Under the pieces are notes generated by a model. It did not search any database, was not told the origin of the DNA, and worked only from the letters and a program-made list of their open reading frames with translations. The position numbers and the translations under genes are program-made. This document shows positions 3,829 to 23,400 of a stretch of DNA of 43,958 nt, one piece after another. Source of the stretch: Tidjanibacter sp. (GTDB lineage Bacteria; Bacteroidota; Bacteroidia; Bacteroidales; Rikenellaceae); assembly GCA_017936005.1 (NCBI GenBank), contig JAGBGK010000026.1, forward strand, positions 1-43,958, given 5' to 3'. Each line of letters opens with the position of its first letter. Positions within the stretch are counted from its first letter, which is position 1.

Positions 3829-3857
3829 AAACCGGAGTTACAACGTAACTCCGGTTT
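3829..3857 (-). other. Hairpin spanning the uxaA stop codon
   Basis: A perfect 13-bp stem (arms AAACCGGAGTTAC and its complement) with a 3-nt loop contains the uxaA stop codon (3838-3840) and its last codons. It ends 17 nt before the ATG of the downstream pectinesterase. No T-run follows on the minus strand, so it is more likely an intercistronic stabiliser, processing site or attenuator than a full terminator. Confidence 0.8.
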
Positions 3858-5325: not shown

Positions 5326-5347
5326 ATTGCTTTCTCTCATAAAATTG

Positions 5348-5385
5348 GGGGAGTGGGAGGCCCCTATGTGTGCCACACACTCCCC
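5348..5385 (-). other. Intercistronic hairpin upstream of uxaA
   Basis: The arms GGGGAGTG and CACTCCCC (8 bp) enclose 22 nt; an alternative inner GTGTG/CACAC stem is also possible. On the minus strand it is followed by a short AATTTT and then the uxaA ribosome-binding site. It could partly terminate transcription or protect the uxaA segment of the mRNA. Confidence 0.6.
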
Positions 5386-5404
5386 TCGACTATTCTGTTG
5401 TTCT

Positions 5405-5867: not shown

Positions 5868-7304
5868 CTACAACATCTTTTTCAGAGCCGCAGCCATACC
5901 CTCTGCCAAAATCACCTTCACATAGCCGGCAACCTTCTCCACGAAGGGTGCTACCTCGGTGAAGTCAACAGTCCAGATGTTCTTGTTCTCCACGATGGCC
6001 TTAACCGTTGCGTCCACATCCTCGCTGTTCCACACCTTCTGGATGAACTCAACGTGCTCGGCGGTGTCGTCGGGAGTGAAGTCAACCTTGCCGCTATACA
6101 GCGTGAGCAGTGCTGCAAACGTAAAGAGCTCCTTCTCGGCCACCTTGCCCGCCTTCTTCCAATTGTCCAGCACGGTGGGGAAGTTGCGGGTCTCCCACTT
6201 GCTGAGCGAGTTGAGCGAGATGGTTTTGAGCATATGACGGATGTAGGGGTTGTAGAACCTCTCCAAGATGCCTGCGGCAAACTCTTTCAGCTCGGCTTGG
6301 TCCTCCTCAATCATAGGGATAACCTCCTCGGCAACCATCGTGTTGATGAAGGCTTCGAGGTCGGCATTGTTGAATGCGTCCATAACGGTCTCGCAACCAA
6401 TCTGCAAGCCGATGGGTACCATACCCGTGTGCGAGCCGTTGAGGATGCGCACCTTCTTGTCGCGGAACTGCTTGATGGTGGGCATAAAGATAACGTGCAG
6501 ACCAGCCTTGTCGAGTGGCAACCTGCGCTGTACCTCCTCATAACCGGGGCCACCGATAGCCCACAAGTGGTAGAACTCGGCCTTAACCACGAGGTTGTCG
6601 TCAAAGCCCAACTCCTCCTTAATCTCGGCGATGTTCTCCCTGGGGAAGCCGGGAACGATGCGGTCAACGAGGGTGTCGCAGAAGTGGCAATACTTCTCCA
6701 CCCACTCGATGAAGTCGGCACCCAACTTGTTGTACTCTGCGTGGCGCAAAACATACTCCCTCAGGGTGGAGCCGTTGTTCTCAATCAGCTCGCAGCAGAT
6801 GATGCAGAGGCCCTTGGTGGGGTCGCCCTCGAAGTGTTTGAACCTCTTGTACAGTAGGGCGGTCATCTTTGCAGGATAACTCTTTGGGGGCAGTGCCCAC
6901 AGGTCGTCACCCTCCTCATAGCGGATACCTGCCTCGGTGGTGTTCGACACGGTGGCCTCCAACTCGGGCGAGAGGAAGATCTTTTCGTATGCCTCATACT
7001 CCTCATAGGGGTTGATGGCACACTGTACACACTTCACCAGACGGATGTCCTTCACGGGTTTTTTGTCCTTCACGCCCTCCAAATAGACGTGGTAGAGGCA
7101 GTCTTGCTGCTCCAACATACCGGCCATACCCTTGTCGATGGGCTGCACAATGGCCACACCGTGGTTCATAATGCCTGCCTCGTTGGCTTTGTCAATCTGC
7201 CAATCCACAAATGCGCGCAGGAAGTTACCCTCGCCAAATTGCAATATCTTGATGGGGAGAACGGGTTTCTCCACGTTCTGTTTGTTGAGTGCTTTGAGTT
7301 CCAT
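5868..7304 (-). CDS. uxaB: Tagaturonate reductase (altronate oxidoreductase) UxaB
   Basis: The protein has 478 residues, normal for UxaB. It reduces D-tagaturonate to D-altronate with NADH in the cytoplasm, the second step of the pathway. It belongs to the mannitol dehydrogenase/UxaB polyol dehydrogenase family: the Rossmann start is ILQFGEGNFLRAF (20-32), and KVRILNGSHTGMVPIGLQIG is the conserved substrate-site segment in the second half. It lies 34 bp after uxaC and 37 bp before the HIT gene in a tight operon. The GFGEGNF-like segment fits UxaB better than UxuB (fructuronate reductase), and uxaA beside it supports that choice. Confidence 0.95.
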   Translation of the reverse strand: MELKALNKQNVEKPVLPIKILQFGEGNFLRAFVDWQIDKANEAGIMNHGVAIVQPIDKGMAGMLEQQDCLYHVYLEGVKDKKPVKDIRLVKCVQCAINPYEEYEAYEKIFLSPELEATVSNTTEAGIRYEEGDDLWALPPKSYPAKMTALLYKRFKHFEGDPTKGLCIICCELIENNGSTLREYVLRHAEYNKLGADFIEWVEKYCHFCDTLVDRIVPGFPRENIAEIKEELGFDDNLVVKAEFYHLWAIGGPGYEEVQRRLPLDKAGLHVIFMPTIKQFRDKKVRILNGSHTGMVPIGLQIGCETVMDAFNNADLEAFINTMVAEEVIPMIEEDQAELKEFAAGILERFYNPYIRHMLKTISLNSLSKWETRNFPTVLDNWKKAGKVAEKELFTFAALLTLYSGKVDFTPDDTAEHVEFIQKVWNSEDVDATVKAIVENKNIWTVDFTEVAPFVEKVAGYVKVILAEGMAAALKKML

Positions 7305-7338: not shown

Positions 7339-8748
7339 TTAGAACTTGAAGTAGTTTTTGGCGTTGTAGTACGAAATGTTCTCCACCATCTGACCGATGA
7401 AGTCCAACTCGCTTGCGGGCAGCAGACCGTTCTCCACATCGTTACCGATGAGGTTACACAATGTCCTGCGGAAGTACTCGTGGCGGGGGTAGGAGAGGAA
7501 GCTGCGGCTGTCGGTCAACATACCCACAAACCTGCTCAACAGACCCAACACCGAGAGGGCGTTCATCTGCTTCTCCATACCGTCCTTCTGATCGAGGAAC
7601 CACCAGCCACTACCGAACTGAATCTTGCCGGCACCGTAGCGACCATCCTGGAAGTTGCCCAACATTGTGGCAATCATCTCGTTATCCCTGGGGTTGAGGT
7701 TGTAGATGATGGTCTTGGTGAGTTTGTCCTCCTTGTCGAGCATATTGAAGAACTTGGACATATTCTTTGCCACCGTGAAGTCGCCAATGGAGTCGAAACC
7801 GGTGTCGGGGCCGAGCTGTGCGAACATACGGCTGTTGTTATCACGGATGGCGCCGTAGTGGAACTGCTGTGTCCAACCGCTTGCGTGGTCCATAATGGCG
7901 AACTCCACCATCATTGCGGTCTTGTACTTCTTGGTCTCCTCGGGAGTGAGGGCCGTTCCGCCATATACTTTCTGGAAGAGAGCCTCCACCTCTGCGTGGG
8001 TGTAGTCCTCGGCATAGAACTCCTCGATGCCGTGATCCGACAGACGGCAACCAACACTCTCGAAGAAGTCGTGGCGCACTTGGAGAGCCTCAATCACGTC
8101 ATCGAAACACTTGATTTCCACACCACTAACCTCAGCTAAGCGGTCGATGTAGGCACGGAAGTTGGCGGGGTTCTCCACAGCCATAGCCTTGTCGGGCCTC
8201 CACGTGGGCAACACCTTCACACCGAAGTTGTCTTTGGCGCACTTGATGTGGTGCTCCAACGAGTCGATGGGGTCGTCGGTGGTGCAGACGGTCTCCACGT
8301 TGTAGTGCAACATCAGGCCTCGTGCCGAACGCTCGGGTGTTTGGAGCATTGCGGAGCAGTGGTCGTAAATCTCTCGTGCGGTTGTGGGGTTGAGGAGCTT
8401 ATCCACACCGAAAGCGGTTTTCAATTCGAGGTGCGTCCAGTGGTAGAGAGGGTTGCGCATAGTGTAGGGCACGGTCTCTGCCCACTTCTCGAACTTCTCC
8501 CAGTCGGTGGTGTCCTTGCCTGTGCAGAAACGCTCGTCTACGCCGTTGGTACGCATAGCCCTCCACTTGTAGTGGTCGCCTTCGAGCCACACTTTGGAGA
8601 GGTTTTCGAAGACGTGGTCGTTGGCCACATACTCGGGGATGAGGTGGCAGTGATAGTCGATGATGGGCATCTTGGCTGCGTGTTCGTGATAGAGCCTTTG
8701 TGCGGTTTCGGTTTGCAACAGGAAGTTGCTGTCGTTGAAAGCTTTCAT
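7339..8748 (-). CDS. uxaC: Glucuronate/galacturonate isomerase UxaC
   Basis: The protein has 469 residues, standard for UxaC of the amidohydrolase-like TIM-barrel superfamily. It isomerises D-galacturonate to D-tagaturonate (and D-glucuronate to D-fructuronate), the entry step for monomers released from pectin. The metal-site motif IIDYHCHL (H33, H35) is near the N-terminus, and LEGDHYKWRAMRTNGV is characteristic. It is the first gene of the third operon. A 203-bp spacer upstream (8749-8951) holds the terminator of the previous operon, a probable operator (8840-8867) and a -7 box (8803-8810). Confidence 0.97.
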   Translation of the reverse strand: MKAFNDSNFLLQTETAQRLYHEHAAKMPIIDYHCHLIPEYVANDHVFENLSKVWLEGDHYKWRAMRTNGVDERFCTGKDTTDWEKFEKWAETVPYTMRNPLYHWTHLELKTAFGVDKLLNPTTAREIYDHCSAMLQTPERSARGLMLHYNVETVCTTDDPIDSLEHHIKCAKDNFGVKVLPTWRPDKAMAVENPANFRAYIDRLAEVSGVEIKCFDDVIEALQVRHDFFESVGCRLSDHGIEEFYAEDYTHAEVEALFQKVYGGTALTPEETKKYKTAMMVEFAIMDHASGWTQQFHYGAIRDNNSRMFAQLGPDTGFDSIGDFTVAKNMSKFFNMLDKEDKLTKTIIYNLNPRDNEMIATMLGNFQDGRYGAGKIQFGSGWWFLDQKDGMEKQMNALSVLGLLSRFVGMLTDSRSFLSYPRHEYFRRTLCNLIGNDVENGLLPASELDFIGQMVENISYYNAKNYFKF

Positions 8749-8802
8749 AGCGAAAAGTGTATTTATAGGTTATTGTTTTTTATTGCATAGTCTAACGCAT
8801 CG

Positions 8803-8867
8803 TAAAAGTACAAAAAACTTTTCACAATGTAATACAAATAATTGCCACAATATAAGGATTTTTTTGC
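8803..8867 (-). promoter_or_regulatory. Probable uxaC promoter and upstream operator
   Basis: On the plus strand AATTGCCAC (8840-8848), seven bases, then GGATTTTTTTGC (8856-8867) reproduce the arrangement upstream of susC (17874-17901). A -7-like TACTTTTA (minus strand, 8803-8810; one mismatch to TAnnTTTG) lies 29 bp downstream of the motif, against 28 bp at susC. The site is probably bound by the hybrid regulator encoded at 20494-24873. Confidence 0.55.
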
Positions 8868-8895
8868 AGAAAGGGCAGAAAGGTCAGAAACAGCA

Positions 8896-8921
8896 AAGGG
8901 CCACCCTTGCGGGCAACCCTT
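8896..8921 (-). terminator. Terminator of the susCD-lipoprotein operon
   Basis: The minus-strand RNA folds into a continuous 11-bp stem (with three G-U pairs) closed by a GCAA tetraloop: AAGGGUUGCCC, GCAA, GGGUGGCCCUU. It lies 30 bp after the stop at 8952 and is followed by pyrimidine-rich TTTCTG repeats rather than a clean U-run. Confidence 0.6.
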
Positions 8922-8951
8922 CGCCAAAAAAGTTTATTGTTCAATTAGGTC

Positions 8952-11900
8952 TTATTCCTCCTCAAACTCGATTACATAGAGGTCGGGCGATGTCGAACCA
9001 CCGGGTTTGCCAATACAAATCTTGGTCATCTCGGTGATGTCCTTAATCTCAAATGTGTAGGTGCCTGCACCGTTGAGAGGCTTGGTCAAGTCAAGAGGCT
9101 CAACAGCAACCTGCTCGCTGATGATTACACCACCATCTTTGGGACCACCATTGGTATAGATAGCAATCTTACAGTCTGCCGTAGCGTCTTTGCCGTGGCC
9201 TGCTTTCAGAGTGAGTGTACCTGGTTTGTCGGTATAGAAATAGGTGTAGGCATTACCACTGCTGTAAGTCATCGAGAAGTAGCTGCAACCATCGGCGGTG
9301 TTGTCGCCGTTGTTACGGATGCTGATCTTCTTGGTCTGGTCGCTTAGGTAGAGATAGCCGGGCTCTGGGTTGCCAGAGATGTCCACAACTGCACCATCCT
9401 TAATCATCATATCCTTGCCAACATTGTTCACGAGGTCTGCTTTTGCGGTGAACATCTCGTTGATATTCCATACCCAGTGATTCTTGGCGGGAGCAGCAGC
9501 AACGTAGGTGTACTCAATCTTGTAGTACCTCAGACCATTACCATCCGACCAGATACGGATGTCGTTGCCCTTGGTGATGTCGATGTCGAACTCGCTAACG
9601 GTGGGTGCGTCGCCCGAGGGAGAACCACCGGGGTTCTGCATCATCTCGCCATCAGCACCATACTGAACGGTAACAAGACGGGTGAGATCCTCGCCACTCG
9701 AGTTGCTACTCCAAACCTTCAAGGTACCACTTGCGGGAGCGGTGAACTGGAAGTAACGTTTGGTAGCCGAACCCTTACCGCCGTGCTGGATTGCCCATTT
9801 GAACTCATCGCGACCGGTGTCGTAGGTCTTGATGCTACCACCACCCGACTGAACGCTAAGGCCATCAACTGTGAGGTTAACCTCGGTGTTGTTGCTAGTG
9901 CCAATTGCTGCGATTGCGCTTGCCCAAGCATCGCTCGAGAAGTCCCAAGTGAGGGTTACGGGAGCGCCGAGGACAACCTCCTTAATCTTGAAGGTTGCGG
10001 TTGCGGTCTCCGATGCGCTGTACTTGCTCGAAGTCTCAACGGGATAAGCGGTCAGGGTAATCTCATACTCGCCAACGGGCAATACTGCTACCTGCTCGGC
10101 GGGCACGGTCAGTTCCAGAGGCTGGTCGGCAGTGAAGGTCAAGCTCTGACCAAGGCCGGTGAGTACATAGGTTGCTGCATTCTCAACGGCTGCCCACGAT
10201 ACGGTTACTGCCTCAGCAGTGCCCTCGTCGAGGCTGGTTGCCGAGAGGGTGATGGTGGGTTTAGCCAAGGGGAATACGGTCTGGTCGGGAGTGAGGTCTT
10301 TGGTCCACTCAACTTTGGTGAGGGTTACTGCGCTCGAAGCCAGAACGTAGATGTTGTTCTCGCCTGCCAAGTCGCCCAAAACAACCTTGTGGGGCTCGCC
10401 ATCGGCCAAGATGGTGTAGCGGTCGCCACCGGCCAATACCTGCATAGTCTCAATGCCGGTTGCGCCCTGTGCGGTAACCACGATAGCACCATAACCCTCG
10501 GTCAGCACACCAACTGCGCTGTACTCGGGCTCGCCCTCGGCGTTAACCATTGCGCCCTTGCTGAACTTAACGCCCTCGCCCATAACAACCTCTGCGGGTA
10601 CCTCTGCGGTAGCGTAGATGCGTACGTTGTCGATGATGGTAGCTTTCTCCAAAGTCTCGGTGTCGAACTTGCTCTTCACGGTGAAGTCCCAAACACGAGG
10701 CTCGCTTTCGAGAGTCAGCTCGGTAGCACGAACAACGATGGGCTGCTGTGCGTTCCACCAACGGGGGTCACCCACCTTCTTGGCGGAGATGTCGCTGGTG
10801 GTGTTGAGGTAGAGCTTGTTAGCCAACGAGTTCACGCAGGGATCCTCGGTCAGAATCTGACCGCCCTCTGCCAAAGCAGCAGCCTCGCTGAAAGTCTCGC
10901 CTGCGAGGTTGGTTGAACCAACGGTAAACCAAGCGGCACCCACATTGTAGTAGTAGTTGCCCGAGCAGGTAGGAGCGTAGGAGTCGGTGCTGTTACGAGC
11001 GATGCGTACCCACGATTTCGATGCGTCAGCCTTGTCCTCATTGTCGTGGAATTGGTTGAGGAACACACACTTGCTGATGTTGAACTCGGTAGCATTTGCT
11101 GCGCTCTCGGTCTTCCAACCAACGATACCCTGGTTGTTGGAGCTGCTCTTGGTCGAGGTAACCATATTGAACGTACAGTTCACGATGTTCACCTTCTCAA
11201 CTTGGAGGTCTTTGCTGTTGAACAGACGCATAAACGTACGGCCCGAATCGTAGAACGTGGAGTTCTGCAAACGGATATCCTTGTGGGTACCTTTACGGAA
11301 GTCGATAAGGTCGCCACCGCTTGCACCCTCGGGGTTGATATCGTGCAGATAGACACCGTCGAGCAAGAATTTCTCGGTCGAACCGGTGGAGTTCGAAACG
11401 TAGAGGCTACGCTCATAACCGGTAATCTCGCAGTTGATGAACTCGATGGTTGCGGGAGCATCGGCGGGAGCATCGTTCTGCAACAAGCTAATCTGGCCTG
11501 CGCCGTCGAAGTAGATGTCCTCCATGTGGAACACCTTACCGGTGGAGATAACCTGCAAGCCACTGATGACGGGTTTCTTACCATCGGCGGTAGTCTCACC
11601 AATGAAGGTGGGCTCACACTGAATCGAAGCCACCGAAGAGAGGTCGTAGGGTACGCCATCGTTGTATGCCAAACGGAGTTTAACGGGGCCGATAGTGCCG
11701 GTGAGGGCATTGATGATTTGGTCGGCTGCGTTAACAAGGTTGGTACCCTCGGTCGAAGGACGAGTCCAAGCGGTGGTGATACCACGCGAGCCTGCCTTAC
11801 CATAAATCAACTCGATGCGGTAGTTGGTGCAAGCCACGAGGCCCTCCACCTTCTTGTTGCACGCATTCTTGTCGGCGCTCTCCAAGGCAACAACCTTCTC

Positions 11901-12458
11901 CTCGCCACCCATCACGGGAGCAACGCGGACGCTGGTCAGGTCGGCCTTGTCCTCGGCAGCGTTCCACTCGATGACGATGTAGTCGGTGCCACGCTCAATG
12001 GCTTTGGGATAGAGGTTGCTACGAACGGGGTAGGTGGAGAAATCCTCCTCCAACACAGCCCAGTGCGAGTCCTCAACATTGGTTTTGTGGCCCTTAACCC
12101 TTGCGTAGAAACTCTCATCTACGGGCAGGTTCTCAACCACAAAGGGAATCTCTTCGGGCAATACGATGTAGGTTTCGATGGGCGAAGCCTCGTCGTAGTT
12201 GGGAGCAACGGTGTTGCCCTCTGCGTCCTCGGCAGCGGCAAAGAGTTGAAGTGTGTACTTCTCGGTGCCCTCCATAGCCTCCCACGAGAACTCGACATCA
12301 GTTCCTTTGGAGGCAATAACGCTTGCTTTGAATTCCAGCGGGGTCAGCGCACGGTTGAGCTCGATGGTGTCGATAATCTCGCCCTGCTCGGGAGCACAAC
12401 CCACCGCTGCCACGGCTGTCGCAGCAAACAATGCTATGTTTCTAAATAACTTTTTCAT
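8952..12458 (-). CDS. Large surface lipoprotein with FN3-like and beta-helix (DUF4957/DUF5123-like) domains
   Basis: The protein has 1168 residues and a lipoprotein signal ending in AVG-C21. Residues about 35-240 look like two fibronectin-type III-like domains. Residues about 250-590 resemble the DUF4957/DUF5123 beta-helix found next to SusCD pairs in pectin loci (repeated short strands such as IEFINCEITGY and LQNSTFYDSGRTF). Then come more Ig/FN3-like repeats (about 740-880) and two C-terminal beta-sandwich modules, the second starting at NHWVWNINEMF. No catalytic residues of a known family were recognised. Its position as third gene after susC-susD, with only 45 bp to susD, suggests a surface glycan-binding protein for pectic oligosaccharides. 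An inactive or undescribed lyase-like helix cannot be excluded. Confidence 0.85.
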   Translation of the reverse strand: MKKLFRNIALFAATAVAAVGCAPEQGEIIDTIELNRALTPLEFKASVIASKGTDVEFSWEAMEGTEKYTLQLFAAAEDAEGNTVAPNYDEASPIETYIVLPEEIPFVVENLPVDESFYARVKGHKTNVEDSHWAVLEEDFSTYPVRSNLYPKAIERGTDYIVIEWNAAEDKADLTSVRVAPVMGGEEKVVALESADKNACNKKVEGLVACTNYRIELIYGKAGSRGITTAWTRPSTEGTNLVNAADQIINALTGTIGPVKLRLAYNDGVPYDLSSVASIQCEPTFIGETTADGKKPVISGLQVISTGKVFHMEDIYFDGAGQISLLQNDAPADAPATIEFINCEITGYERSLYVSNSTGSTEKFLLDGVYLHDINPEGASGGDLIDFRKGTHKDIRLQNSTFYDSGRTFMRLFNSKDLQVEKVNIVNCTFNMVTSTKSSSNNQGIVGWKTESAANATEFNISKCVFLNQFHDNEDKADASKSWVRIARNSTDSYAPTCSGNYYYNVGAAWFTVGSTNLAGETFSEAAALAEGGQILTEDPCVNSLANKLYLNTTSDISAKKVGDPRWWNAQQPIVVRATELTLESEPRVWDFTVKSKFDTETLEKATIIDNVRIYATAEVPAEVVMGEGVKFSKGAMVNAEGEPEYSAVGVLTEGYGAIVVTAQGATGIETMQVLAGGDRYTILADGEPHKVVLGDLAGENNIYVLASSAVTLTKVEWTKDLTPDQTVFPLAKPTITLSATSLDEGTAEAVTVSWAAVENAATYVLTGLGQSLTFTADQPLELTVPAEQVAVLPVGEYEITLTAYPVETSSKYSASETATATFKIKEVVLGAPVTLTWDFSSDAWASAIAAIGTSNNTEVNLTVDGLSVQSGGGSIKTYDTGRDEFKWAIQHGGKGSATKRYFQFTAPASGTLKVWSSNSSGEDLTRLVTVQYGADGEMMQNPGGSPSGDAPTVSEFDIDITKGNDIRIWSDGNGLRYYKIEYTYVAAAPAKNHWVWNINEMFTAKADLVNNVGKDMMIKDGAVVDISGNPEPGYLYLSDQTKKISIRNNGDNTADGCSYFSMTYSSGNAYTYFYTDKPGTLTLKAGHGKDATADCKIAIYTNGGPKDGGVIISEQVAVEPLDLTKPLNGAGTYTFEIKDITEMTKICIGKPGGSTSPDLYVIEFEEE

Positions 12459-12503
12459 AACTTACTTATATTATTCAAAGGTATAAGTGTCAAAATTCTC
12501 TCT

Positions 12504-14336
12504 TTACTCGGTTACAGTTGAGCCTGCATAACCATAGTCGTTCTTGAGTTCGGTGTTGGCGTTGCAGGTTGCATCAAACAATGGCCAGAACTGACGAGTG
12601 TCGGGGTCGTTGAGGTAGAGTACATCGTAGGCATAAACCTTCGACTTATCCGAGTAGAACTTCTCGGGTTTGATATACTCCTTAACGTGGGTCCAATCGT
12701 CGCCTGCGGGAGCAGCCTTCTGGTTAGGCTCCAAGCCGTAGATGGTGAGGCCCTCGGCACCGTTGTCTTTCCAGTAGAGGTCGCCACTCAGGAAGGTGTA
12801 TTTACCCTGCAAGTTGGCCAGGTCGATGATGTTCTGCTTGGTTGCTTCGAGAGTCTCGCCCAAGATACCCCAGCGGATGAGGTCGCCCTTGCGCAGGAAC
12901 TCGCCCACAAACTCAAACTTCCTCTCCTCCTGAATGGCTTTCAGGATGTTATCCTCGCCGGTCAGACCATTTACATAACTCTGTGCCACACTCTCGTTGC
13001 CTTTGAATGCCCTCTCGCGTACCTCCAACAGGCACTGTTTTGCGAAGGCCTCGTCCCTTGCGCCACACTCGGTACTGTTGGCAATCTCGGCTGCCATCAG
13101 CAGAATGTCGGCATAACGCATCACGATGGGTTTCACACCACAGTCGTTACCGCCGGTGTAGGGAGCCTTAACCTGCCACTCGAACCTATACTTACCAAAG
13201 TACCAGTTGTTGATGTTGTTGAGTTTAGCAACGTGGCCTTTGTCCCACTGCCAGTTCACACAGCTGATGTCCCTACGAACGTCGCCCTGTGCATAGTCGA
13301 AGTAGAGGGTAGGCACGGGACCTGCGTTACCACCACGACCGCCGAGGTCGGCATCCTTGATTGCGAACGAGTAGTTCCACCTACCACGACCATCGCTGAA
13401 AGGAATTACCCACAGAGTCTCCTTACCTGCGGTGAGGTCCATATTGGAGGTTGCTTTCCAGAGGTCAACATAGTTTGCATAGAGGCTGTTGCACTTCTTG
13501 CTGATAGCCTCTTTGAGGTAGCCCAAAGCTTTGGGATAGAGCACGCTTGCCTGCAACTCCTCGTCGTTGGTCTTGCGTACCGAGCCGGGGTTGTTGGTGC
13601 CAAGCTGACCATCATCGGGGCGCAGTGCATAGCCACTTGCTGCCAATGCCAAACGAGCATACATACCAATGGCGAACGACTTGCTGATGCGGTCGGTCCT
13701 CATAGTCTGTGCGCTCTCGCCGGGCCAATAGAGCATAGGGATAGCGGTTTCGAGGTCTGCGAGGATCTGTTTGTAGATCACATCGCGGTTCGATTTGGGA
13801 ATGTAGATAGTCTCCGAGTTGATGGGCTCGAAACGTGCGGGAACATCACCCCAACCTTTCAGAAGGTCGTGGTAGAGCACTGCCCTCAACACCAAAGCCT
13901 CAGCATAGAGGTAGGCCATCTGGGGGTCATTCTCGATGTTACCATATTTTTTCAAGCCTGCAATACAGAGGTTAGCCCTCTCAACACCGGTGTAGAGGCA
14001 CTCGAATGGGCCATTGCTGTTACTCATCTGGCCGTTACCGGTCTTGGTGTCGTAGGCCGACAGGTCGAGTTTGTCGCCTGCGTCGGTGTTGTTGTTCCAC
14101 TCAATATCAGTATTGAAGCCGTAGTAGGGCAGGTAACGACCACGGTGGCCGTTGGTCTGACCGAAAGCATCGGAGATACCGAAAATGTTGTACTCTGCCA
14201 AGGTGTAGTTCGAGAATACAATCGACTCGTCAAACTCCGACTTGGTCTCCACATCCAGAAAATCGCCCGTGCAAGAGAAGAGCGACACGGATGCAGCAAT
14301 CATCAAAATATATGCAATTTTTTTCATCGCTTTCAT
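12504..14336 (-). CDS. SusD/RagB-family glycan-binding lipoprotein
   Basis: The protein has 610 residues. SusD proteins are outer-membrane lipoproteins that form the lid of the SusC channel and bind the incoming oligosaccharide. The signal sequence ends at LFS-C22 followed by TGDFLD, typical of the family (the start could also be M4). The all-helical tetratricopeptide core shows in FECLYTGVERANLCIAGL and ALVLRAVLYHDLLKGWGDVP (the RA-yxxL-x-xyGdvP region). The C-terminal half carries RYADILLMAAEIAN and IQEERKFEFVGEFLRKGDLIRWG, the conserved SusD_RagB endings. It starts 15 bp after susC. The context predicts pectic galacturonan oligomers as ligand. Confidence 0.96.
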   Translation of the reverse strand: MKAMKKIAYILMIAASVSLFSCTGDFLDVETKSEFDESIVFSNYTLAEYNIFGISDAFGQTNGHRGRYLPYYGFNTDIEWNNNTDAGDKLDLSAYDTKTGNGQMSNSNGPFECLYTGVERANLCIAGLKKYGNIENDPQMAYLYAEALVLRAVLYHDLLKGWGDVPARFEPINSETIYIPKSNRDVIYKQILADLETAIPMLYWPGESAQTMRTDRISKSFAIGMYARLALAASGYALRPDDGQLGTNNPGSVRKTNDEELQASVLYPKALGYLKEAISKKCNSLYANYVDLWKATSNMDLTAGKETLWVIPFSDGRGRWNYSFAIKDADLGGRGGNAGPVPTLYFDYAQGDVRRDISCVNWQWDKGHVAKLNNINNWYFGKYRFEWQVKAPYTGGNDCGVKPIVMRYADILLMAAEIANSTECGARDEAFAKQCLLEVRERAFKGNESVAQSYVNGLTGEDNILKAIQEERKFEFVGEFLRKGDLIRWGILGETLEATKQNIIDLANLQGKYTFLSGDLYWKDNGAEGLTIYGLEPNQKAAPAGDDWTHVKEYIKPEKFYSDKSKVYAYDVLYLNDPDTRQFWPLFDATCNANTELKNDYGYAGSTVTE

Positions 14337-14351
14337 AGTCTTTTAAGAGGT

Positions 14352-17300
14352 TTAGAATGTGAGGTTAAGACCAAATACTACACCTCTGCTCTTTGGATAT
14401 GCCGAGTAGTCAACACCCGGAGTAAGAGGAGTGCTGCGGCGCGAGTCAACCTCGGGGTCGTAGCCCGAATAGTTGGTCCAGCAGAAGAGGTTCGAGCCGG
14501 TAGCGTAGATACGCAAGCTCTGGATACCTGCACGTTTGGTCAACTTCTCGGGGAAGGTGTAACCCAAAGTTACGCTTGCCAGACGTACAAACGAACCGTC
14601 CTCAACAGCGTCGTCGCTGAATGCAGCGTTGTAAATCATAGGCGAGCCCTCGGTCTTGCCGGCATTCATCTCTGCCAACTTGTCGGGGTCGTTCACGAGT
14701 TCACCGGTGGTCCAGTCGACGTTGGTCCAGCGGTTCTCAACGGTCATAGTGTTCAACAAGTTACGATAGTTGTACTTACGAGTCGAAGTAAACTCAATCT
14801 TGTTGGCATTGTAAATCTCGTTGCCAAATACGCCATTGAAGTTGGCCGAGTAGTCGAAGCCACCAATCCAACCCGAGATAATCAAACCGCCGGTCCAATC
14901 GGGCAGTGCGTTACCGATAATCTCCTTGTCGGCGTCGTCGGTCGAAATCTTACCATCGCCCGAGAGGTCTTTGAACTTCCTTGCACCGGGACGCATATAG
15001 TTGGCACCAACAACCTCGCTTGCATCAGCAACGCCCTCTTTGAGAATCCACTTGCCGTCAACCATATCGAAGTCGTCAACGGTGTAGAAACCGTCGTAGC
15101 GGTAGCCATACATATTGCCCAGGGGCTGGTTTGCCTCCACGAGGTAGTCGCCCTTAATCTCGGTCGAAGCCCAGTTGGAGCTGTCGAGGATGTAGTCCAT
15201 ACCGAGAGTCACAACCTTGTTCTGGTTGTAGGAAGCGTTGGCCGAGATGGTCAAACCTGCGTTCTTGGTCTCAAATACGGTGAGGTTCAAAGTAGCCTCC
15301 AAACCCTGATTCTGTACCTCGCCGAGGTTGCGATACTGAGTATCATAGCCACTACCTGCGGTGGGGAAGTTAATCAACAGGTCTTTGGTGTTGTTGCGGT
15401 AAGCCTCAAACGAACCGCTAACCTTACCGTTCAGGAACGAGAAGTCCAAACCGATGTTGTGCGAAACGGTGGTCTCCCACTTCAAATCGGGGTTGGGCAT
15501 AGTTTTACCTGCCGACCAGATGATACCGCCCTGCGAAATCCAGCTCGAAGTGTTGGCCTTGAAGGTCTGCATAGTCTGGCCCGAGGGGATGTTGTTGTTA
15601 CCTGCGGTACCGTAGCTATAACGCAGCTTCAAGTTGTCGAGCGACTCAACGTCTTTCAGTCCACCAATCTCCGACAGACGCAATGCAACTGCACCCGAGG
15701 GGAAGTAACCCCAACGGTTTGCGCCCAAGAACTTCGACGAACCATCGGCACGCATTGTTGCGCTTGCCGAGAGGATACCCTTCCAATCGTAGTTTACACG
15801 ACCGAAGAACGAAAGGAGTTTGTCGTCCTGGCTGTAGAAGATGTTGTTCGAGCAAGCAACACCCGAAGCCATAAAGTTCCAAGCCATATCGGCGGTGAAG
15901 AAGTCGGGATAACCACCAAGTTCGGCAGTCTGTTTCTGTGCCTGAGTGAGGATATACTCCTGACCTACCAAGATGTCGAGTTTGTTGTCCTCCCAATCGA
16001 ATGCCTCACCCACGTTGTAGTGGATGGTGTTGGTGTTACGCAGACGAGTGCGGTCGTAGTCGTTGTAGGTAACCAGAGGCAGACCTTTCAGGGAGTTGCC
16101 CTGCTGGTCGGTGTATGCGGTGTTGGCAGTCTTGTAGGAGGTCAGACCATAGTAGTAGTAGTCAGCCTGTGCGTAGGTGTCCAAACCGCCCTCAATCTTC
16201 ACGTTGAGGCCTTTGAGAGCCTTCCAGGTAACTGCACCGTTGAGGTTCCAGTTCTGACGGCTGCGCTTCTTGTCGTTGTCATAGAGGCTCTGTACGGGAG
16301 GAGCCGAGTCGCCATAGTCCTCTTCGAGGTCGCTACCCTCCACACTGCTCTTGATTGGAATAGGAGTGTAGATAACGGCGTGTTTCAGACGAGCGTTGCT
16401 ACCCGAGGTGGAGCCACTACCATCGTTGAGCGAGTTGGCACCTGCACCACGAACCTGGGTATCCGAGTAACGCAAGTTGAAATCGAAGGAGAGTTTCTTG
16501 TTGGCTTTGATTTTGGTTTTCAGGTTAAGGTTGTTACGCAGGTAGTTGGAGCCGAGCATAATTGCGTCGTCCTCCATACGGGCGTAACTTGCGGTCCAGC
16601 TGAAACCCTCTTTACCACCACTGATAGAGAGGTTGTGGTTCATACTACGGCCCTGGTTACCGAAAATCTGACCGATGTAGTCGTTGCCTTTGAGTCCTTT
16701 GTAGAGGTCGATGTCCTGGAACATACCGAAGACGGGCTCGTAGCGGTCGCTCAAACCACCATTGAGGAGGTAGTTCTCATACTGCAACTGAACGAAGTCA
16801 TAGGGAGCCATAACTTCGATAGCATCCCTGTTGGCCATTGTCTTAACGCCGGCGTACATATTGTAGTTAACGCTCAACTTGCCCTCCTGGCCGCTCTTGG
16901 TGGTCACGATGATTACACCGTTTGCACCACGCGAACCGTAGATGGCGGTGGAGAATGCGTCCTTCAATACGTCGATACTCTGGATGTCGCTCGAAGGGAT
17001 GTCGTTGATGTTGTCAACGGGGAAACCATCCACGATGTAGAGGGGCGACGAGTCCTGGGTAATCGAACCTGTACCACGAACACGGATTTTGATGTCGGCA
17101 TCGGGATCACCCTCGGTGGTCGTTACCTGCACACCTGCCATTTTACCTGCGAGTGCTTCGCTAACGCTCACTACGGGTTGCGAGGTGAGTGTTTCGGAGT
17201 CAACCGAAGATACCGAACCGATAAGGTCCTTACGAGCTACGGTAGCATAACCCACAACCACAATATCCTCCATCACTTGGGAGTCGTTCTCCAAAGTAAC

Positions 17301-17579
17301 GGTGATGTAGGTCTGGCTGCCAATAGCCACAGTTTTGTCTTTCATACCGAGGTACGAGAAGACCAACTTTTTCTGCGGTGCGTTGGGTACGTCGAGACTC
17401 CACTCACCGGTAACACCTGTGGATGTACCGTTGGTGGTGCCATCAACAACGACCGATGCGCCAATGATAGGCTCACCTGCCGAGTCCTTAACAATACCGC
17501 TAACCTTTTGAGCCTCGGCTGTCAGAGCAAGGCTCAACCCCACGATTAGTAGGGCAAACTTTTTGGTAAAGTTTTTCAT
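14352..17579 (-). CDS. SusC/RagA-family TonB-dependent outer-membrane transporter
   Basis: The protein has 1075 residues. It is a TonB-driven beta-barrel that imports oligosaccharides with its SusD partner. In order: signal peptide (to about AEAQ24); carboxypeptidase-regulatory-like domain (VSGIVKDSAGEPIIGASV, residues about 26-110); a TonB-box-like stretch, DIVVVGYATV; plug domain with SEALAGKMAGVQV, the SusC signature SSPLYIVDGFP, and YGSRGANGVIIVTTKSG; then the 22-strand barrel ending in FGLNLTF. It is the first gene of the susCD operon, with a 373-bp upstream region containing a probable operator and a leader of about 250 nt. The substrate is inferred from its neighbours: homogalacturonan oligomers. 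Confidence 0.97.
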   Translation of the reverse strand: MKNFTKKFALLIVGLSLALTAEAQKVSGIVKDSAGEPIIGASVVVDGTTNGTSTGVTGEWSLDVPNAPQKKLVFSYLGMKDKTVAIGSQTYITVTLENDSQVMEDIVVVGYATVARKDLIGSVSSVDSETLTSQPVVSVSEALAGKMAGVQVTTTEGDPDADIKIRVRGTGSITQDSSPLYIVDGFPVDNINDIPSSDIQSIDVLKDAFSTAIYGSRGANGVIIVTTKSGQEGKLSVNYNMYAGVKTMANRDAIEVMAPYDFVQLQYENYLLNGGLSDRYEPVFGMFQDIDLYKGLKGNDYIGQIFGNQGRSMNHNLSISGGKEGFSWTASYARMEDDAIMLGSNYLRNNLNLKTKIKANKKLSFDFNLRYSDTQVRGAGANSLNDGSGSTSGSNARLKHAVIYTPIPIKSSVEGSDLEEDYGDSAPPVQSLYDNDKKRSRQNWNLNGAVTWKALKGLNVKIEGGLDTYAQADYYYYGLTSYKTANTAYTDQQGNSLKGLPLVTYNDYDRTRLRNTNTIHYNVGEAFDWEDNKLDILVGQEYILTQAQKQTAELGGYPDFFTADMAWNFMASGVACSNNIFYSQDDKLLSFFGRVNYDWKGILSASATMRADGSSKFLGANRWGYFPSGAVALRLSEIGGLKDVESLDNLKLRYSYGTAGNNNIPSGQTMQTFKANTSSWISQGGIIWSAGKTMPNPDLKWETTVSHNIGLDFSFLNGKVSGSFEAYRNNTKDLLINFPTAGSGYDTQYRNLGEVQNQGLEATLNLTVFETKNAGLTISANASYNQNKVVTLGMDYILDSSNWASTEIKGDYLVEANQPLGNMYGYRYDGFYTVDDFDMVDGKWILKEGVADASEVVGANYMRPGARKFKDLSGDGKISTDDADKEIIGNALPDWTGGLIISGWIGGFDYSANFNGVFGNEIYNANKIEFTSTRKYNYRNLLNTMTVENRWTNVDWTTGELVNDPDKLAEMNAGKTEGSPMIYNAAFSDDAVEDGSFVRLASVTLGYTFPEKLTKRAGIQSLRIYATGSNLFCWTNYSGYDPEVDSRRSTPLTPGVDYSAYPKSRGVVFGLNLTF

Positions 17580-17837
17580 GGTTTGAATTTTGGTTAATGT
17601 TAATTTGGTTGAGTTTTTATTTGTTTGGTTTGTTGTTTTGTGTCGTCAATCGGGATCGTTTTCATCGGGAACGATTGGGGCCTAAATGTGGGCTTTCCCA
17701 AGGGGTGTTGTGATGCGAAATAATGCGAAAGCAGACACCTCTCGCCTTGCGACCTTGCGCTTTTGTGGGGCGGAGATAGGGGTTCAATTCTCTGTGCTGT
17801 GTATGATGTGTTAGGTTTTAGGTGTGGTTGTACATTG

Positions 17838-17845
17838 CAAATATA
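17838..17845 (-). promoter_or_regulatory. -7 box of the susC operon
   Basis: On the minus strand TATATTTG matches TAnnTTTG exactly. There is no TTTG at the -33 position, as expected where an activator replaces that contact. A start site near 17831 would give a leader of about 250 nt. Confidence 0.6.
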
Positions 17846-17873
17846 AGAATTGCGTTCAAATTTCTTTGGTAAA

Positions 17874-17920
17874 AATTGACACTTTACACGGATTTTTTGT
17901 CATCATTTCTACGGTGTCAA
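17874..17920 (-). promoter_or_regulatory. Candidate operator for the hybrid regulator, upstream of susC
   Basis: AATTGACAC (17874-17882), seven bases, then GGATTTTTTGTC (17890-17901) match the uxaC upstream site in sequence and spacing. A further GTGTCAA (17914-17920) is the inverse of TTGACAC (17876-17882). The 28-bp distance to the -7 box suits an activator. Confidence 0.55.
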
Positions 17921-17952: not shown

Positions 17953-20484
17953 TTACCTCGTTTCGGTCAGGCTGAATAGGTAGTGTTCCAAGTTGGAATA
18001 TCCGTCAGCCCTCAGCGTGGCACCATCATCAGGGTTTTTCCTATCCATACCGTTACGTTTTTCCCACTTGTCGGGCACTCCATCGCCATCGCTGTCTTTG
18101 GCCACTTTTCTCTTGCCTTTGAGAGTGGGCCAGCCGCCAACCTCCTCTTGGGAGTTGACGATTTTTCCACTTCCGGAGAGTATGTCCACCAACACCCTCT
18201 GGTCCACCGTATCGGCAGGCTTGGCACCAACGCCTCCCTGCACAACCACCTTCTCGTAGGCCGACCACGCAGGCTCGCCAAACATCTTCCTCGGGGCAGC
18301 CATCTCGATGTCGGCTCTGCTCTTACCGCCCTTGATACCCACGCCTTGCCAATTATCCTCGTTGATACTCTCGTTGCCTGCCATCACGTTGCCGCTGATG
18401 TGGTAGTGTCCCGTGGTGGCATAGGGTTTCTTGTAGACCGAGGCCTCCAAAAACTCCTTGTTGCTCTTGGTGTCGGGGCCGGGCATAAAGAGGTTGTTGC
18501 AGAATATCCACCAACCCTCTTCGCCACCATAGCAGGCTTTGTTTTTCCAATTATAGACCACGTTGTTATAGACCTCCACGGTGCCACGATAGAGCAACTC
18601 ATCGCTGCCCCAATAGATGAACGGGTGGTCCAGACGTGGGTTGCGTGAGGTGTGGTGAGCCAAGAGGTTGTGGTGGAAGGTGGCGTTCCTGCCGCCCCAA
18701 ATGCCTCCATAGCCGTGGTCGCCCTTCTTGTGTGTGGAGTGGTTGAGACTCTCGGCGATGAGGCAATACTGCATCGTGAAATCCCTGTTGCCGTAGGCCG
18801 AAGCGCACTCGTCCACGCTCCAACTCATCGAGCAGTGGTCCACGATAGCCCTCGTACACTTGCGAAACTCCACCGCATCCTCCTGCGACTTGGTCCCATC
18901 GCCCAAGCGGAAACGGAGGTGTCGCACGATGATGTTGTCGGCCTCAAAACGGGTGTCGTGGCCTGCGATGCACACTCCACCTGCGGGTGCGCTCTCGCCT
19001 GCGAGGGTGAAGTTACCCTCCCTGACGTGTAGCATCTCTTGGAGGTTGATAGTACCGCTCACCTCAAAGAGAATCATTCGTGAGCCCTTTTGCTCCAAAG
19101 CCCAACGCAACGTACCCTCCGAGCCGTCGTCGGCCAGAGAGGTGACTTTCAATACCTTACCACCACGACCTCCTGTGGCCCACATACCACCGCCCTCGGC
19201 GCCGGGGAATGCGGGTAGTTGTTCGGTTGCCACCAACTCGGCAGGGCGGTAGTCGATGTTGTGCATTGCCTCATACTCCAACGAGGCCCAGATGAAGGGA
19301 CCAACGCCCTTGCAGTCGTTCTCAATGATTGGCTCCGAGAGATAGTAGGCAAAGTCGCCCATACGGTTCTGCTTACCTCCCAAACCTCCCACAGCGCAAC
19401 ACTGAATCATTGAGATAGTTCCGTCGGCGTTCTCACGCATAAACCGCCTTACGAATTTCTCATACAGTTCGGCACCTTTCTGGCGGTATGTGCGGTCCAC
19501 AAATCCCAGACGGCCCGCTTTGAGCATTGCGTAGGTGAGCATAATGGAGCCTGTGGCCTCCTCGTAGTTACCCTCCCTTGTAGGGCAGTCCATCACCTGA
19601 TACCACATACCGCTCTCGGCATTGGCAAAGGCGGGGATGGTCTTGAAGATGTGGTCCAAAATACCCACCAGCTTATCCCTACCTTCGGTCTTGGGGGGCA
19701 ACATTTCGAGTACCTCCACGAGTGCCACGGTGTACCAACCCATAGCCCTCAGCCAAGCGTGCTGACTCTGGCCCGTGGTCTTGTCGCACCAGAACATCTC
19801 TTTCGAGGAGTCCCAAGCGTGGCGGAAAAGCCCCGTTGCGGGGTCGTAGGTCTTTTCGGCCACCAGAACGAACTGATTTACAATATCCTCATAGCCGTGC
19901 TTGCGGTCAATGCCACTACCTCCACCTCCAAACCTGCGCAGATACTCCGTCTTGAAAGGCTCTGCCATATAGAGTCCGTCGAGCCACATTTGGTTGGGGT
20001 AGGCTTTCTTGTGCCAATAGCCGCCCTCGGGGGTACGAGGTTGGCCCTCCAACTGCTTCCACATCAGTCGCAGAGCATTGCGATAGCGTTTGTCGCCCGT
20101 GCGGTCATAGGCCCTATAAAGGAGTCTGCCGGGGCAGATGTGGTCGAGGTTGTAGTTGGAGAGTTTATAGGTCTGGATACTCTCACCATCCTCGCTGACC
20201 ATTGTGTTCACCCAATCGAGTGCATATTTCTCAAATTCGGCCACTTGGTAGCGGTCGCCTGCGTGGACGATGGAGAGCAGTTCGAGTCCGGTGGTGTAGT
20301 TCCACTTGGGCTTCTTCACTCCATCCATATAGACAGCGTCGGGGATGCGTTTCATCTCGCTCTCGGCCATACGGACACTCAGGGGTTTATCACCTCTGAT
20401 TTCGGGTACCGAGCGATTGTCCTGTGCGGTGGCCGACAGTAGGGTGGTGGCCAACAATGCAACGCAGATTAGGAGTTTTTTCAT
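17953..20484 (-). CDS. Bifunctional GH105 unsaturated galacturonyl hydrolase - PL1 pectate lyase
   Basis: The protein has 843 residues with two enzymes in one chain. After a signal peptide (to about residue 21, no lipobox, so periplasmic) residues about 25-410 are a GH105 alpha/alpha-barrel. The catalytic aspartate is probably D169 in QMWLDGLYM, and WLRAMGWY and EEATGSIMLTYAML are conserved. GH105 removes the 4,5-unsaturated uronate that lyases leave on product ends. Residues about 423-840 are a PL1 beta-helix lyase: FPGAEGGGMWATGGRGG, DHCSMSWSVDE and SRNPRLDHP (active-site arginine region), ending in a calcium-type DSDGDGVPDKWE repeat. The lyase would create the unsaturated ends that the other domain removes. 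It starts 9 bp after the regulator gene. Confidence 0.93.
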   Translation of the reverse strand: MKKLLICVALLATTLLSATAQDNRSVPEIRGDKPLSVRMAESEMKRIPDAVYMDGVKKPKWNYTTGLELLSIVHAGDRYQVAEFEKYALDWVNTMVSEDGESIQTYKLSNYNLDHICPGRLLYRAYDRTGDKRYRNALRLMWKQLEGQPRTPEGGYWHKKAYPNQMWLDGLYMAEPFKTEYLRRFGGGGSGIDRKHGYEDIVNQFVLVAEKTYDPATGLFRHAWDSSKEMFWCDKTTGQSQHAWLRAMGWYTVALVEVLEMLPPKTEGRDKLVGILDHIFKTIPAFANAESGMWYQVMDCPTREGNYEEATGSIMLTYAMLKAGRLGFVDRTYRQKGAELYEKFVRRFMRENADGTISMIQCCAVGGLGGKQNRMGDFAYYLSEPIIENDCKGVGPFIWASLEYEAMHNIDYRPAELVATEQLPAFPGAEGGGMWATGGRGGKVLKVTSLADDGSEGTLRWALEQKGSRMILFEVSGTINLQEMLHVREGNFTLAGESAPAGGVCIAGHDTRFEADNIIVRHLRFRLGDGTKSQEDAVEFRKCTRAIVDHCSMSWSVDECASAYGNRDFTMQYCLIAESLNHSTHKKGDHGYGGIWGGRNATFHHNLLAHHTSRNPRLDHPFIYWGSDELLYRGTVEVYNNVVYNWKNKACYGGEEGWWIFCNNLFMPGPDTKSNKEFLEASVYKKPYATTGHYHISGNVMAGNESINEDNWQGVGIKGGKSRADIEMAAPRKMFGEPAWSAYEKVVVQGGVGAKPADTVDQRVLVDILSGSGKIVNSQEEVGGWPTLKGKRKVAKDSDGDGVPDKWEKRNGMDRKNPDDGATLRADGYSNLEHYLFSLTETR

Positions 20485-20493: not shown

Positions 20494-23400
20494 TTATTGG
20501 TTTTCAAACTTTTCTTGCTTTATTTTCAACTTCCTGAGATACTCCACGGGCGAACTCTTATACTGCTCCTTGAAACAGCGACTGAAATAGCCCGGGTCGG
20601 AGAAGCCCACCTGGTAGGCCACCTCCGCCACGGAGAATTGGCCCGTACGCAGGAGTACCTCGCTCTTGGTCACCCTGTACTCCTTAATCAACTCCACGGG
20701 CGACTTACCCGTCAACGACTTGATTTTGTTGTACATAGTGGTCCTTCCCAACATCATATGGGTTGCCATATCGTCGATGGTGAGGTCGGAGTTTTCGATG
20801 TTCTCCTCAATCCACGCCATCATCTGTTGGAGGAATTGTTCGTCCTTGTTGGTCACCACCACATCCTGCGATACAGCCTCCACAATGCGGTTACGGGCCG
20901 AGCCTTTTGATATCTTCTCAAAGAGTAGCCTGCGCTGGGTGAGGAGGTTGTCGATGCGCACCAGCAGCAACTCCATACTGAACGGCTTGGTGATATATCC
21001 GTCGGCTCCATATTTCATTGCCAAGATGCGGTCCTCGGGGGTCTGCTTGGCGGTGAGCATAACGACGGGTATATGACTCGTTTCGAAGTTTTTGCGTATG
21101 TTTTCCACCAACTCAATACCATCCATCTCCGGCATCATCAGGTCGGTGATGACAATGTCGGGTTGTTCGGCATTAATCTTCGCCAGAGCCTCCACACCAT
21201 TGGTTGCCTCCACAACCTTGTAGGTGTCGATGAGGTTGTTGTAGATGAATGTTCTCATCTCGTTGTTGTCCTCCACAAGTAGGATTTTTTGTGCTCCTTC
21301 GGGCGGTGCAATCTCTTTGTGTGGGGATGTGGCGGGAGGTGTTTCGCTCTCTTCGGCAAACTTTATTTGGTTCATCTCGAAGTGTGCATTGCCCAACGGT
21401 AGGCTGATGGTAAAGGTCGTACCGTGCCCCACCTTACTATCCACTCCAATCGTACCCTTGTGTAGTTCGACAATCTCCCGACTGAGCGACAGACCGATAC
21501 CGCTACCACCCATATCGCCCCTCACAGCAGGCGCATATTGAGCAAACCTCTCAAAGATGTTGGAGAGTTGCTCTTTGGGAATGCCGATGCCGTTGTCCTG
21601 CACAACCACTCTCACACACTCTTCCTCCAAACGTTGGGTGAGCGACAGACTGATAGTGCCCTTGCTGTGGGTGAATTTGAGTGCATTGCTCACGAGGTTG
21701 TAGATGAGGCTTTCGAGCCTTTGACGGTCGCCCCAGATGTTGATACTCTCGTGGGAGAAGGAGAACATAAGGTTTATCTTGCGTTCGTCGGCCAAGTCCC
21801 TGAAATCGTCCATCACTCCTTTGGCTACCTCCACGATGTCGAGCCTCTCCACACACAACTCCATCTTGTTTTTGACCACCTTACGGAAGTCGAGTATCTG
21901 GTTGATGAGCGAGAGCATTCGTTTGGAGTTTTTGTAGGATAGCGTCAGGCTGTTCTCTGCTCTGGGTGAGAGGTTTTCGTGCTTTTGCACCTCTTCGATG
22001 CCACCCATAATGAGTGTGAGAGGTGTACGCAACTCGTGGGATATGTTGGTGAAGAATTTGAGCTTCATCTCTGCCGTATCCTGCTCCACGCGGGCATCGG
22101 TGCGCAATTTGGCCAGACGCAGGTAAAGACTGCCGACGAACCACAACATTCCAATCGCCAGAGCGATGTATATACACCACGCCCACCACGATAGCCACGG
22201 TGGTGTTACGATGTGTACGGGGAGGCTAATCTCCTCGCCGGCCATTTGAGGGTTACCCACATAGGCTTTCACACGGAAGGTATATTCACCCGGGGGTACT
22301 TTGGAGTAGTAGGCACTGTTGATGTTGTGTGAGTCGGTCCACTCCTTGTCGTAGCCTTCGAGGATGTAGAGGTAGTTCACACGGTTTTGCAGACGATAGT
22401 TGAGCGAAGCAAACTGTATGCGGAAGAGGGTGTAGTCCCACGGCAGTTCCACACTTCCGCCTTCGGCTATGGACTTACTCAATGGTGAAGATTTGTCGCC
22501 CACTATGGCCTCTTGGTTCTGCACCTCCAACGATGTGAAATGCAGTTTGTAGTCATAGTCCTCTTGGGTAATCTCCTCGGGGTTGATGATGTGTAGGTCG
22601 CTCACGCTGCCGAACAGGAGGTTGCCTGCGGAGTCGGTAGCGGCAGCGGCCTCGTTGTAGAGATTGGGTTTGAAGCCGTCGTAGCGTGTGTAGTTGGTAA
22701 AGATACGCTCCTTGGGCTCAAACTTGGAAATACCCCTTTCGGTTGCGAGCCATATTGCACCATCCACCGCTTCGGTTGCCGAGAGGACAATGTTGCTCGA
22801 CAGTCCGTCGCTGGTGGAGAAGGTCTCAAACGAGGGTAATCCCTGTGTGTTGTAACCCTTTATACGGCACAGACCGCCGCCATAGGTGGAGAGCCACACC
22901 TCGCCGCTACGGCTTTTGAGGATGTGGATGACATCACCCGCTTTGAGTCCATCGTTGTCGGTCGAGCGTTGGGCCACCACAAACCTCACACTCTCCGGAC
23001 TCTCCGAGGGGTTGAACACAATGAGTCCCTCCGAGGTGCCCACCAACATACGCTGGGGCGACTCGCAGATGATGTAACGAGCCTTTTCGCCCGGCTCGGT
23101 GGGGTAGTGTGGGAAACTATTGAGCGTGTTGTAGAAATTGTTTTCCTCGCTCGACGGGAGCATATTGATAGCACCGCCATAGGTTGCCACCCAGATACGT
23201 CCCTCGTTGTCCTCTTCGATGCAATAGACTTGGTCGTTGGAGAGCGAGTGTGGGTTGCCTTCGCTGTGGCGGAAGTGTTTGAAGCGGTGAGTCTTGCGTT
23301 TGCCACTTGGTGGTGTCAGGCGGTAGAGTCCGTTGCCCTTTGTGCCCACCCAAACATACCCCTTGCTGTCGGGTTTTATGGTGTAGATGGGACCGATACT

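Follow-up and report, generated by a model that had tools for sequence, protein, structure and literature searches.

A Predicted Tandem Operator Shared by Pectin Breakdown, Uptake, and Galacturonate Catabolism Genes in a Tidjanibacter Pectin Cluster

Results

Here, we analyzed a 43,958-nucleotide stretch of DNA from Tidjanibacter sp. (GenBank assembly GCA_017936005.1, contig JAGBGK010000026.1, positions 1 to 43,958; hereafter, the window), which carries a pectin cluster that includes the gene of a hybrid two-component system (HTCS) regulator (20494-24873). A repeated motif lies ahead of three presumed operons of this cluster, and comparison with related genomes makes it very probable that it is the binding site of this HTCS, through which the expression of all three would be coordinated. 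The draft genome to which the contig belongs comprises 1,971,499 bases and is 88.8% complete; the nearest named relatives found are Tidjanibacter metagenome-assembled genomes from goat and sheep gut (5 loci).

All of the genes concerned lie on the minus strand, in three groups. The first begins with a GH28 polygalacturonase-like gene (28508-30178) and continues with a gene for an fn3-domain protein with a PelZ-like pectate lyase region (26571-28466), a GDSL esterase-pectinesterase fusion (24915-26564), the HTCS gene, and, last, a GH88-family hydrolase with a C-terminal PelZ-like pectate lyase region (17953-20484), the intergenic gaps being 41, 6, 41, and 9 bases. The second comprises genes for a SusC-like TonB-dependent transporter (14352-17579), a SusD-like protein (12504-14336), and a 1168-aa protein with DUF4957 (8952-12458; DUF5123 scored below its cutoff), with gaps of 15 and 45 bases. 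In the third, uxaC, encoding a glucuronate/galacturonate isomerase (7339-8748; NF002794), precedes uxaB, encoding tagaturonate reductase (5868-7304; NF002969), a HIT-domain protein gene (5405-5830), a uxaA-like altronate dehydratase gene (3838-5451; GD_AH_C, GD_AH_second, and SAF), and a pectinesterase gene (2807-3811), with gaps of 34, 37, -47, and 26 bases. Between the groups lie 373 and 203 bases, with another 178 ahead of the GH28 gene; we infer that they form three operons.

Two features of the gene content deserve mention in their own right. The PelZ-like region is common to the GH88 fusion and the fn3 protein, and in the compared loci each picks up the gene of the other at roughly 40 to 48% identity, which suggests a duplication. 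The HIT-domain gene overlaps uxaA by 47 bases and is also present in two of the relatives described below (G013 and G017), while in two others (G016 and G005) uxaA directly follows uxaB.

The HTCS is a protein of 1459 aa in which all of the domains expected of such a regulator, namely, a Reg_prop propeller sensor with Y_Y_Y, HisKA, HATPase_c, Response_reg, and an AraC-type HTH_18 domain, lie on one chain, and its gene is located next to susC and susD, as expected of an HTCS. Sequence relatives in PDB are 12aw for the receiver-HTH part and 4a2l, 3v9f, and 3ott for the propeller sensor; these are other proteins, and their ligands are not transferable to this HTCS.

On the plus strand, exact copies of AATTG[AC]CAC-N7-GGATTTTTT lie at 8840-8864 and 17874-17898, before uxaC and susC. 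An earlier sequence-only reading of this DNA had pointed to these two copies, and their exactness and starting positions held, although the ends that it gave (8867 and 17901) fall 3 bases beyond the 25-base motif. Its description of the motif was right as far as it went but missed both the larger repeat and a third copy. Read on the minus strand, the motif forms the central part of a tandem repeat of 34 bases with a period of 21 (17869-17902 and 8835-8868), whose consensus in the sense of transcription is TGnCAAwwwwTnC-N8-TGnCAAwwwTTnC. With a matrix from other clades only, the predicted susC operator (17869-17902, minus strand; TGACAAAAAATCC-N8-TGTCAATTTTTAC) scored 28.9 and the predicted uxaC operator (8835-8868, minus strand; TGCAAAAAAATCC-N8-TGGCAATTATTTG) scored 18.5, each at P = 0.001. 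A half-site matrix built from susC and uxaC sites revealed the third, more diverged copy before the GH28 gene (30268-30301, minus strand; TGGCAATTTGTGC-N8-GGACAAAAAATCC), which scored 21.8 with the other-clade matrix (P = 0.001). The regulon of susC and uxaC that had been proposed is thus supported in both of its members but was incomplete, since the presumed GH28-HTCS operon also carries a site.

Each of the three sites has a -7 box on the same strand at a nearly constant distance from the start of its second half-site: TATATTTGC at 17837-17845 for susC (36 bases), TACTTTTAC at 8802-8810 for uxaC (37 bases), and TAACTTTGC at 30235-30243 for GH28 (37 bases). The distances of 28 and 29 bases previously given for susC and uxaC follow from these spacings after subtraction of the 8 bases to the motif edge. 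Among 19 sites from seven genomes, a TAnnTTT box follows the start of half-site 2 by 36 to 37 bases in 17 cases, the exceptions being susC and uxaC of G079, a genome of another family. The 250 bases upstream of the HTCS gene contain no TAnnTTTG, which hints weakly that the HTCS is expressed from the GH28 promoter; the hint is weak because the same pattern misses the boxes assigned to uxaC (TACTTTTA) and of susC (266 bases upstream).

The half-sites agree better as direct than as inverted repeats. Over 17 sites, the mean agreement was 7.1 of 13 letters in the direct reading versus 4.8 in the inverted reading in the same register, so that on this average the element consists of two similar direct half-sites about 21 bases apart, as in an HTCS-type operator; the uxaC half-sites themselves gave 8.0 direct and 7.0 inverted matches. 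As a general form, we dropped the inverted reading in favor of the direct one, whose average fit is better; for susC taken by itself, the inverted reading is possible.

Could the copies be a coincidence, or the traces of a recently duplicated promoter? The exact copies number only two, in the window and in the whole draft genome alike (the next best match has 2 mismatches), as either would have it. However, the 2 matches found in the window at up to 3 mismatches compare with 0.03 expected and were equaled in 0 of 100 shuffles, the third copy has diverged, and further copies occur in another family. Moreover, pairwise identity of the half-sites at orthologous promoters is 0.72 to 0.88 over five genomes, well above the 0.30 to 0.31 in the 60 bases upstream. 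We consider chance or duplication exceedingly unlikely. At up to 3 mismatches, the draft genome contains 12 matches, versus 4 for a reversed control pattern, and matches with one mismatch outside orthologous loci were seen in G002, G020, G035, G059, G066, G078, G081, G088, G111, and G112.

HTCS orthologs in the same arrangement are present in five genomes of the genus (G013, G017, G016, G005, and G009) and in G079, of the same order, whose HTCS is 40% identical. In our main test, a half-site matrix trained on other clades only was applied at tandem spacing 21, with 1,000 Markov shuffles per promoter and with the clades left out whole (G000, the window's genome, with G013, G017, and G010; G016, G005, and G009 with G018, G020, G022, and G019; and G079). 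Together with the window, the site was found in 7/7 HTCS-bearing loci at susC (P = 0.001), 7/7 at uxaC (P ≤ 0.002), and 6/7 at GH28 (P ≤ 0.003), counts that are not independent because the genomes are related. A less strict earlier run, in which same-clade relatives were in training for some genomes and the G013 GH28 training site was one base off, gave 7/7, 7/7, and 5/6, respectively, at P ≤ 0.002 (G017 GH28 was unscored); in that run, the uxaC (P = 0.002) and GH28 (P = 0.001) sites of G079 were found before entering any training set. As expected of an HTCS-type operator, then, the site is conserved at orthologous promoters alongside the HTCS. In G079, uxaC and uxaB are divergent, and the site lies between them. 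As a separate observation, half-site 2 at the uxaC promoter of G016, G005, and G009 (L060 to L062) overlaps an imperfect palindrome, CAATGTGGCrAAAwTTyrCATTG, which was read by eye, was not seen in G000, G013, or G017, and is possibly the site of another regulator.

Five further genomes (G010, G018, G019, G020, and G022) carry SusC orthologs (73 to 92%) and uxaC (91 to 97%), and a whole-genome search of each found no HTCS ortholog; the matches obtained instead were, in G010 and G020, paralogs of 31 to 34% over 800 to 1000 residues, along with short matches to kinase or receiver regions. Four of the five loci have the esterase gene directly adjoining the GH88 gene on one unbroken contig, and the HTCS gene is therefore missing from them; the contig of G022 begins inside GH88, placing the position of the HTCS gene outside it. 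At P < 0.01, none of these genomes had a site at susC (0/5; lowest P = 0.037, in G022, and 0.143 in G010) or at GH28 (0/4; lowest P = 0.626; the G010 gene is cut by the contig end). At uxaC, 0/5 had a site in place, four of them with P = 0.075 to 0.709. Genomes with both sites thus number 7/7 with the HTCS versus 0/5 without it (Fisher P = 0.001, relatedness ignored). The occurrence of the motif at orthologous susC/uxaC pairs, which had been suggested as a check, is therefore borne out where the HTCS is present.

These genomes also bear on whether the conserved block might be a core promoter element or an UP-like A/T tract and no regulator site at all. The block is indeed A/T rich, and its spacing to the -7 box is fixed. 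However, in genomes lacking the HTCS these genes still have -7 boxes but not the block, conservation extends beyond the A/T core to the TGnC and C positions, and no other scored place in the window's own genome reaches the level of susC or uxaC. A promoter element as the sole explanation is very unlikely.

Somewhat less improbable, yet still unlikely, is that the sites belong to another regulator, either a second HTCS or a LacI-type UxaR or KdgR encoded elsewhere, and simply accompany the cluster. The window's genome has two further HTCS-like matches and three LacI-type regulators over the cutoff, and in Bacteroides thetaiotaomicron galacturonate catabolism is assigned to the LacI-type KdgR and UxaR (PMC3878776). 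Against this, the tested promoters are without sites where the cluster is retained except for this one HTCS gene; G005, which is 99% complete, has the sites with no LacI-family match at E ≤ 0.001; the HTH domains of the two own-genome HTCS paralogs examined are only 34 to 35% identical; and the form of the site fits what that study predicts for AraC-type HTCSs (PMC3878776).

The HTCS of the cluster itself remains the most probable binding protein, and conservation of its domains was compared. Within the genus, the HTH domain is 79 to 90% identical, versus 52 to 80% for the sensor. Of the four domains compared in 8 orthologs, the HTH domain is the most conserved in 4 and ties with the receiver in G079.

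Specificity was assessed with a sequence-only profile of 17 sites in 12 genomes, scoring the best 150 of 501 to 1263 first-look places per genome (150 of 876 in the window's own). In the latter, susC (E = 1.2e-4), uxaC (E = 3.8e-4), and GH28 (E = 0.025) ranked first, followed by an unrelated intergenic place (E = 0.030), and the profile search revealed no further convincing member of a wider regulon in this genome; weak members may have been missed because only these best places were scored. G019, G020, and G022 had no profile match at E ≤ 0.5, while the HTCS-less G018 had one (0.096) and G010 had two (0.22 and 0.37).

The unrelated place (G000:C45:1026) lies between genes that, by eye, resemble those of a possible DNA-binding protein and an arginine decarboxylase. 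We rejected it as an HTCS target by profile comparison, because it also scores in G010 and G018. TGCCAAA/TGACAAA boxes precede the arginine-decarboxylase-like gene in G000, G018, and G010 (L157, L140, and L141), with and without the HTCS; in G013 (L160), similar boxes, and boxes only, were read. All of these boxes are perhaps the operator of another regulator.

To place the HTCS-less genomes, a tree was built from four proteins with G079 as the outgroup. They occupy three or four separate places in it: G010 next to G000, G013, and G017 (100); G022 next to G005 (100); G018 with G020 (99), joining G009 (67); and G019. Because the outgroup also carries the HTCS at this position of the cluster, the tree suggests that, provided the ancestor had the gene, it was lost at least three times. 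In a post hoc comparison of 17 against 14 related promoters, with one -7 candidate per promoter chosen by eye and with G017 (a near-duplicate of G013) and G079 uxaC left out, the -33 TTTG elements of the HTCS-less promoters scored higher (pooled mean, 3.0 of 4 versus 2.1; one-sided P = 0.009), with no single gene below 0.05. This is a hint that, if the difference is real, promoter conversion went along with the losses. A LacI regulator taking the place of the HTCS was considered and rejected: G018, G019, G020, and G022 are without a LacI match over the cutoff, and G010 has three. In G018 and G020 (L117 and L118), hairpin-like inverted repeats with T runs after them, terminator-like by eye, lie between GH88 and susC, before the susC promoter.

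More distant loci delimit the uxaC link. A scan of 13 such loci, with a 95% null of 9.6 per 20 kb and a score of 21.4 reached by 1 of 60 shuffles, gave values above the null in G073 (16.4 for a place lacking a -7 box and 14.7 for one whose -7 box lies at 36), G026 (13.1), and G112 (12.5), as well as G057 (11.4 versus the null of 9.6). In G002, of the same genus (HTCS 44%), sites precede the GH28 gene (23.3, -7 box at 36) and the esterase gene (16.8); contig C35 of this genome reached at best 5.9.

A number of observations weigh against the HTCS as the common regulator or against parts of that assignment. At the distant loci, the G002 uxaC promoter was without a site in the same scan, and G040 and G057 (HTCS 47%) showed no clear site near the HTCS gene or at uxaC. 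The link to uxaC is therefore not universal; we rejected a general one, no site having been found at uxaC of these three genomes, and the link seems to be a property of loci with uxaC in or near the cluster, G079 included. Among the closer relatives, the GH28 site of G005 is weak (P = 0.034 in the main test and 0.052 in the earlier run) and is not among the profile matches. In G079, a place outside the cluster (E = 0.027) outranks GH28 (0.17) and uxaC (0.30); this place (G079:C1:380669; L148) lies between two divergent genes that are not pectin-like by eye. The receiver is 1 to 2 points above the HTH domain in G009, G040, and G057 (3 of 8 orthologs). At susC alone, the inverted reading gives 7.2 matches (shift 23) and the direct one 6.8 (shift 21), and the inverted reading fits better in 2 of 5 GH28 sites. 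The genomes are related, and the training sites were first picked by eye.

Among the HTCS-less genomes, uxaC of G019 gave P = 0.005 (0.040 in the earlier run); this match is not in the usual operator place, since it begins 69 bases upstream of the gene and extends over the -7 box at 58. Stretches resembling single half-sites remain at susC of G010 and G022. Finally, the genomes are drafts of 59 to 100% completeness, for which reason the HTCS can be called absent from the rest of a genome with less certainty than from the locus.

Discussion

Taken together, comparative evidence supports the proposal made from the window alone, that an HTCS operator ties pectin uptake to galacturonate catabolism. 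Probably, to judge from the sites, a single membrane pectin sensor of a ruminant-gut bacterium switches on breakdown, uptake, and galacturonate use through the same tandem site. Pectin oligosaccharides (oligogalacturonides) in the periplasm would bind the propeller sensor, whereupon the kinase would phosphorylate the receiver domain on the same protein. The AraC-type domains of two HTCS proteins may then bind the 21-base repeat head to tail, two helix turns apart, and the bound HTCS could recruit RNA polymerase to the -7 box at its fixed distance of 36 to 37 bases. One signal would in this way increase breakdown outside the cell, import, and galacturonate catabolism in the cytoplasm at the same time and, presumably, by way of the GH28 operon, the HTCS itself, a positive feedback.

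One possible, although tentative, account of the HTCS-less relatives is that, in this genus, the HTCS was lost at least three times from a cluster that remained intact in other respects and that each time the operators of the uptake, catabolism, and enzyme genes decayed, whereas the genes themselves and their -7 boxes were retained and the -33 TTTG elements improved. An inducible cluster would then have been repeatedly rewired to be independent of its sensor, and the HTCS with its operators would be a detachable control layer. With the same cluster present in related species that have the sensor and in others that lack it, the cost and benefit of regulation might be measured. At the level of DNA, the prediction is that cytoplasmic catabolism of sugar acids is under the direct control of a glycan sensor in the periplasm.

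HTCS_Fru, which we take to be BT1754, and HTCS_Hep (BT4663) are among the published systems with which the present one can be compared. Unlike in these, the genes here are those of the hexuronate-route isomerase, reductase, and dehydratase, and the substrates differ; cytoplasmic kinases and inner-membrane transporters are reported in only two HTCS regulons (PMC3878776). Among the open-licence publications listed in our literature searches, we found none that ties uxaC to an HTCS operator; PMC12125979 concerns a Vibrio XylR-like regulator and not an HTCS. That the two levels respond together is already known, since in Segatella copri growing on homogalacturonan the genes for uronate isomerase and tagaturonate reductase rise (PMC11784079). 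Several HTCS genes have been described as not upregulated or constitutive, the HTCS gene of Bacteroides xylanisolvens polysaccharide utilization locus (PUL) 49 being the exception in a susC mutant (PMC11784079, PMC4769552). An HTCS gene behind its own operator, as we propose here, would differ from the former (PMC11784079, PMC4769552).

The kind of operator is already known, because HTCS sites of Bacteroides have been predicted to be direct repeats lying on average 21 bases apart (Ravcheev et al. 2013, PMC3878776); the Crp-like palindrome of Bacteroides reads wwwTATGTTnTAnAACATAwww (PMC3878776). As for the protein, response-regulator fragments of BT4124 and BT4663 showed phosphorylation-dependent binding to susCD promoters in gel shifts (PMC11253607). 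Our HTCS resembles these in having a receiver and an AraC-type domain; binding was measured there, whereas here we infer it (PMC11253607).

The closest parallel is the B. thetaiotaomicron pectin pair BT4111/BT4124 (HTCS_Rgu-1), whose predicted operator consists of two 12-base sites with a 9-base spacer (PMC3878776). Both systems combine a pectin or rhamnogalacturonan cluster, a predicted direct repeat of period 21, and an AraC-type HTCS (PMC3878776). As described there, however, the HTCS_Rgu-1 regulon ends at periplasmic monosaccharides, with galacturonate catabolism left to the LacI regulators KdgR and UxaR, whereas in the Tidjanibacter locus the uxaC-uxaB-uxaA group carries a predicted HTCS site of its own (PMC3878776). 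What differs from the B. thetaiotaomicron regulons, judging from the DNA, is thus the extension of a predicted HTCS site to galacturonate catabolism.

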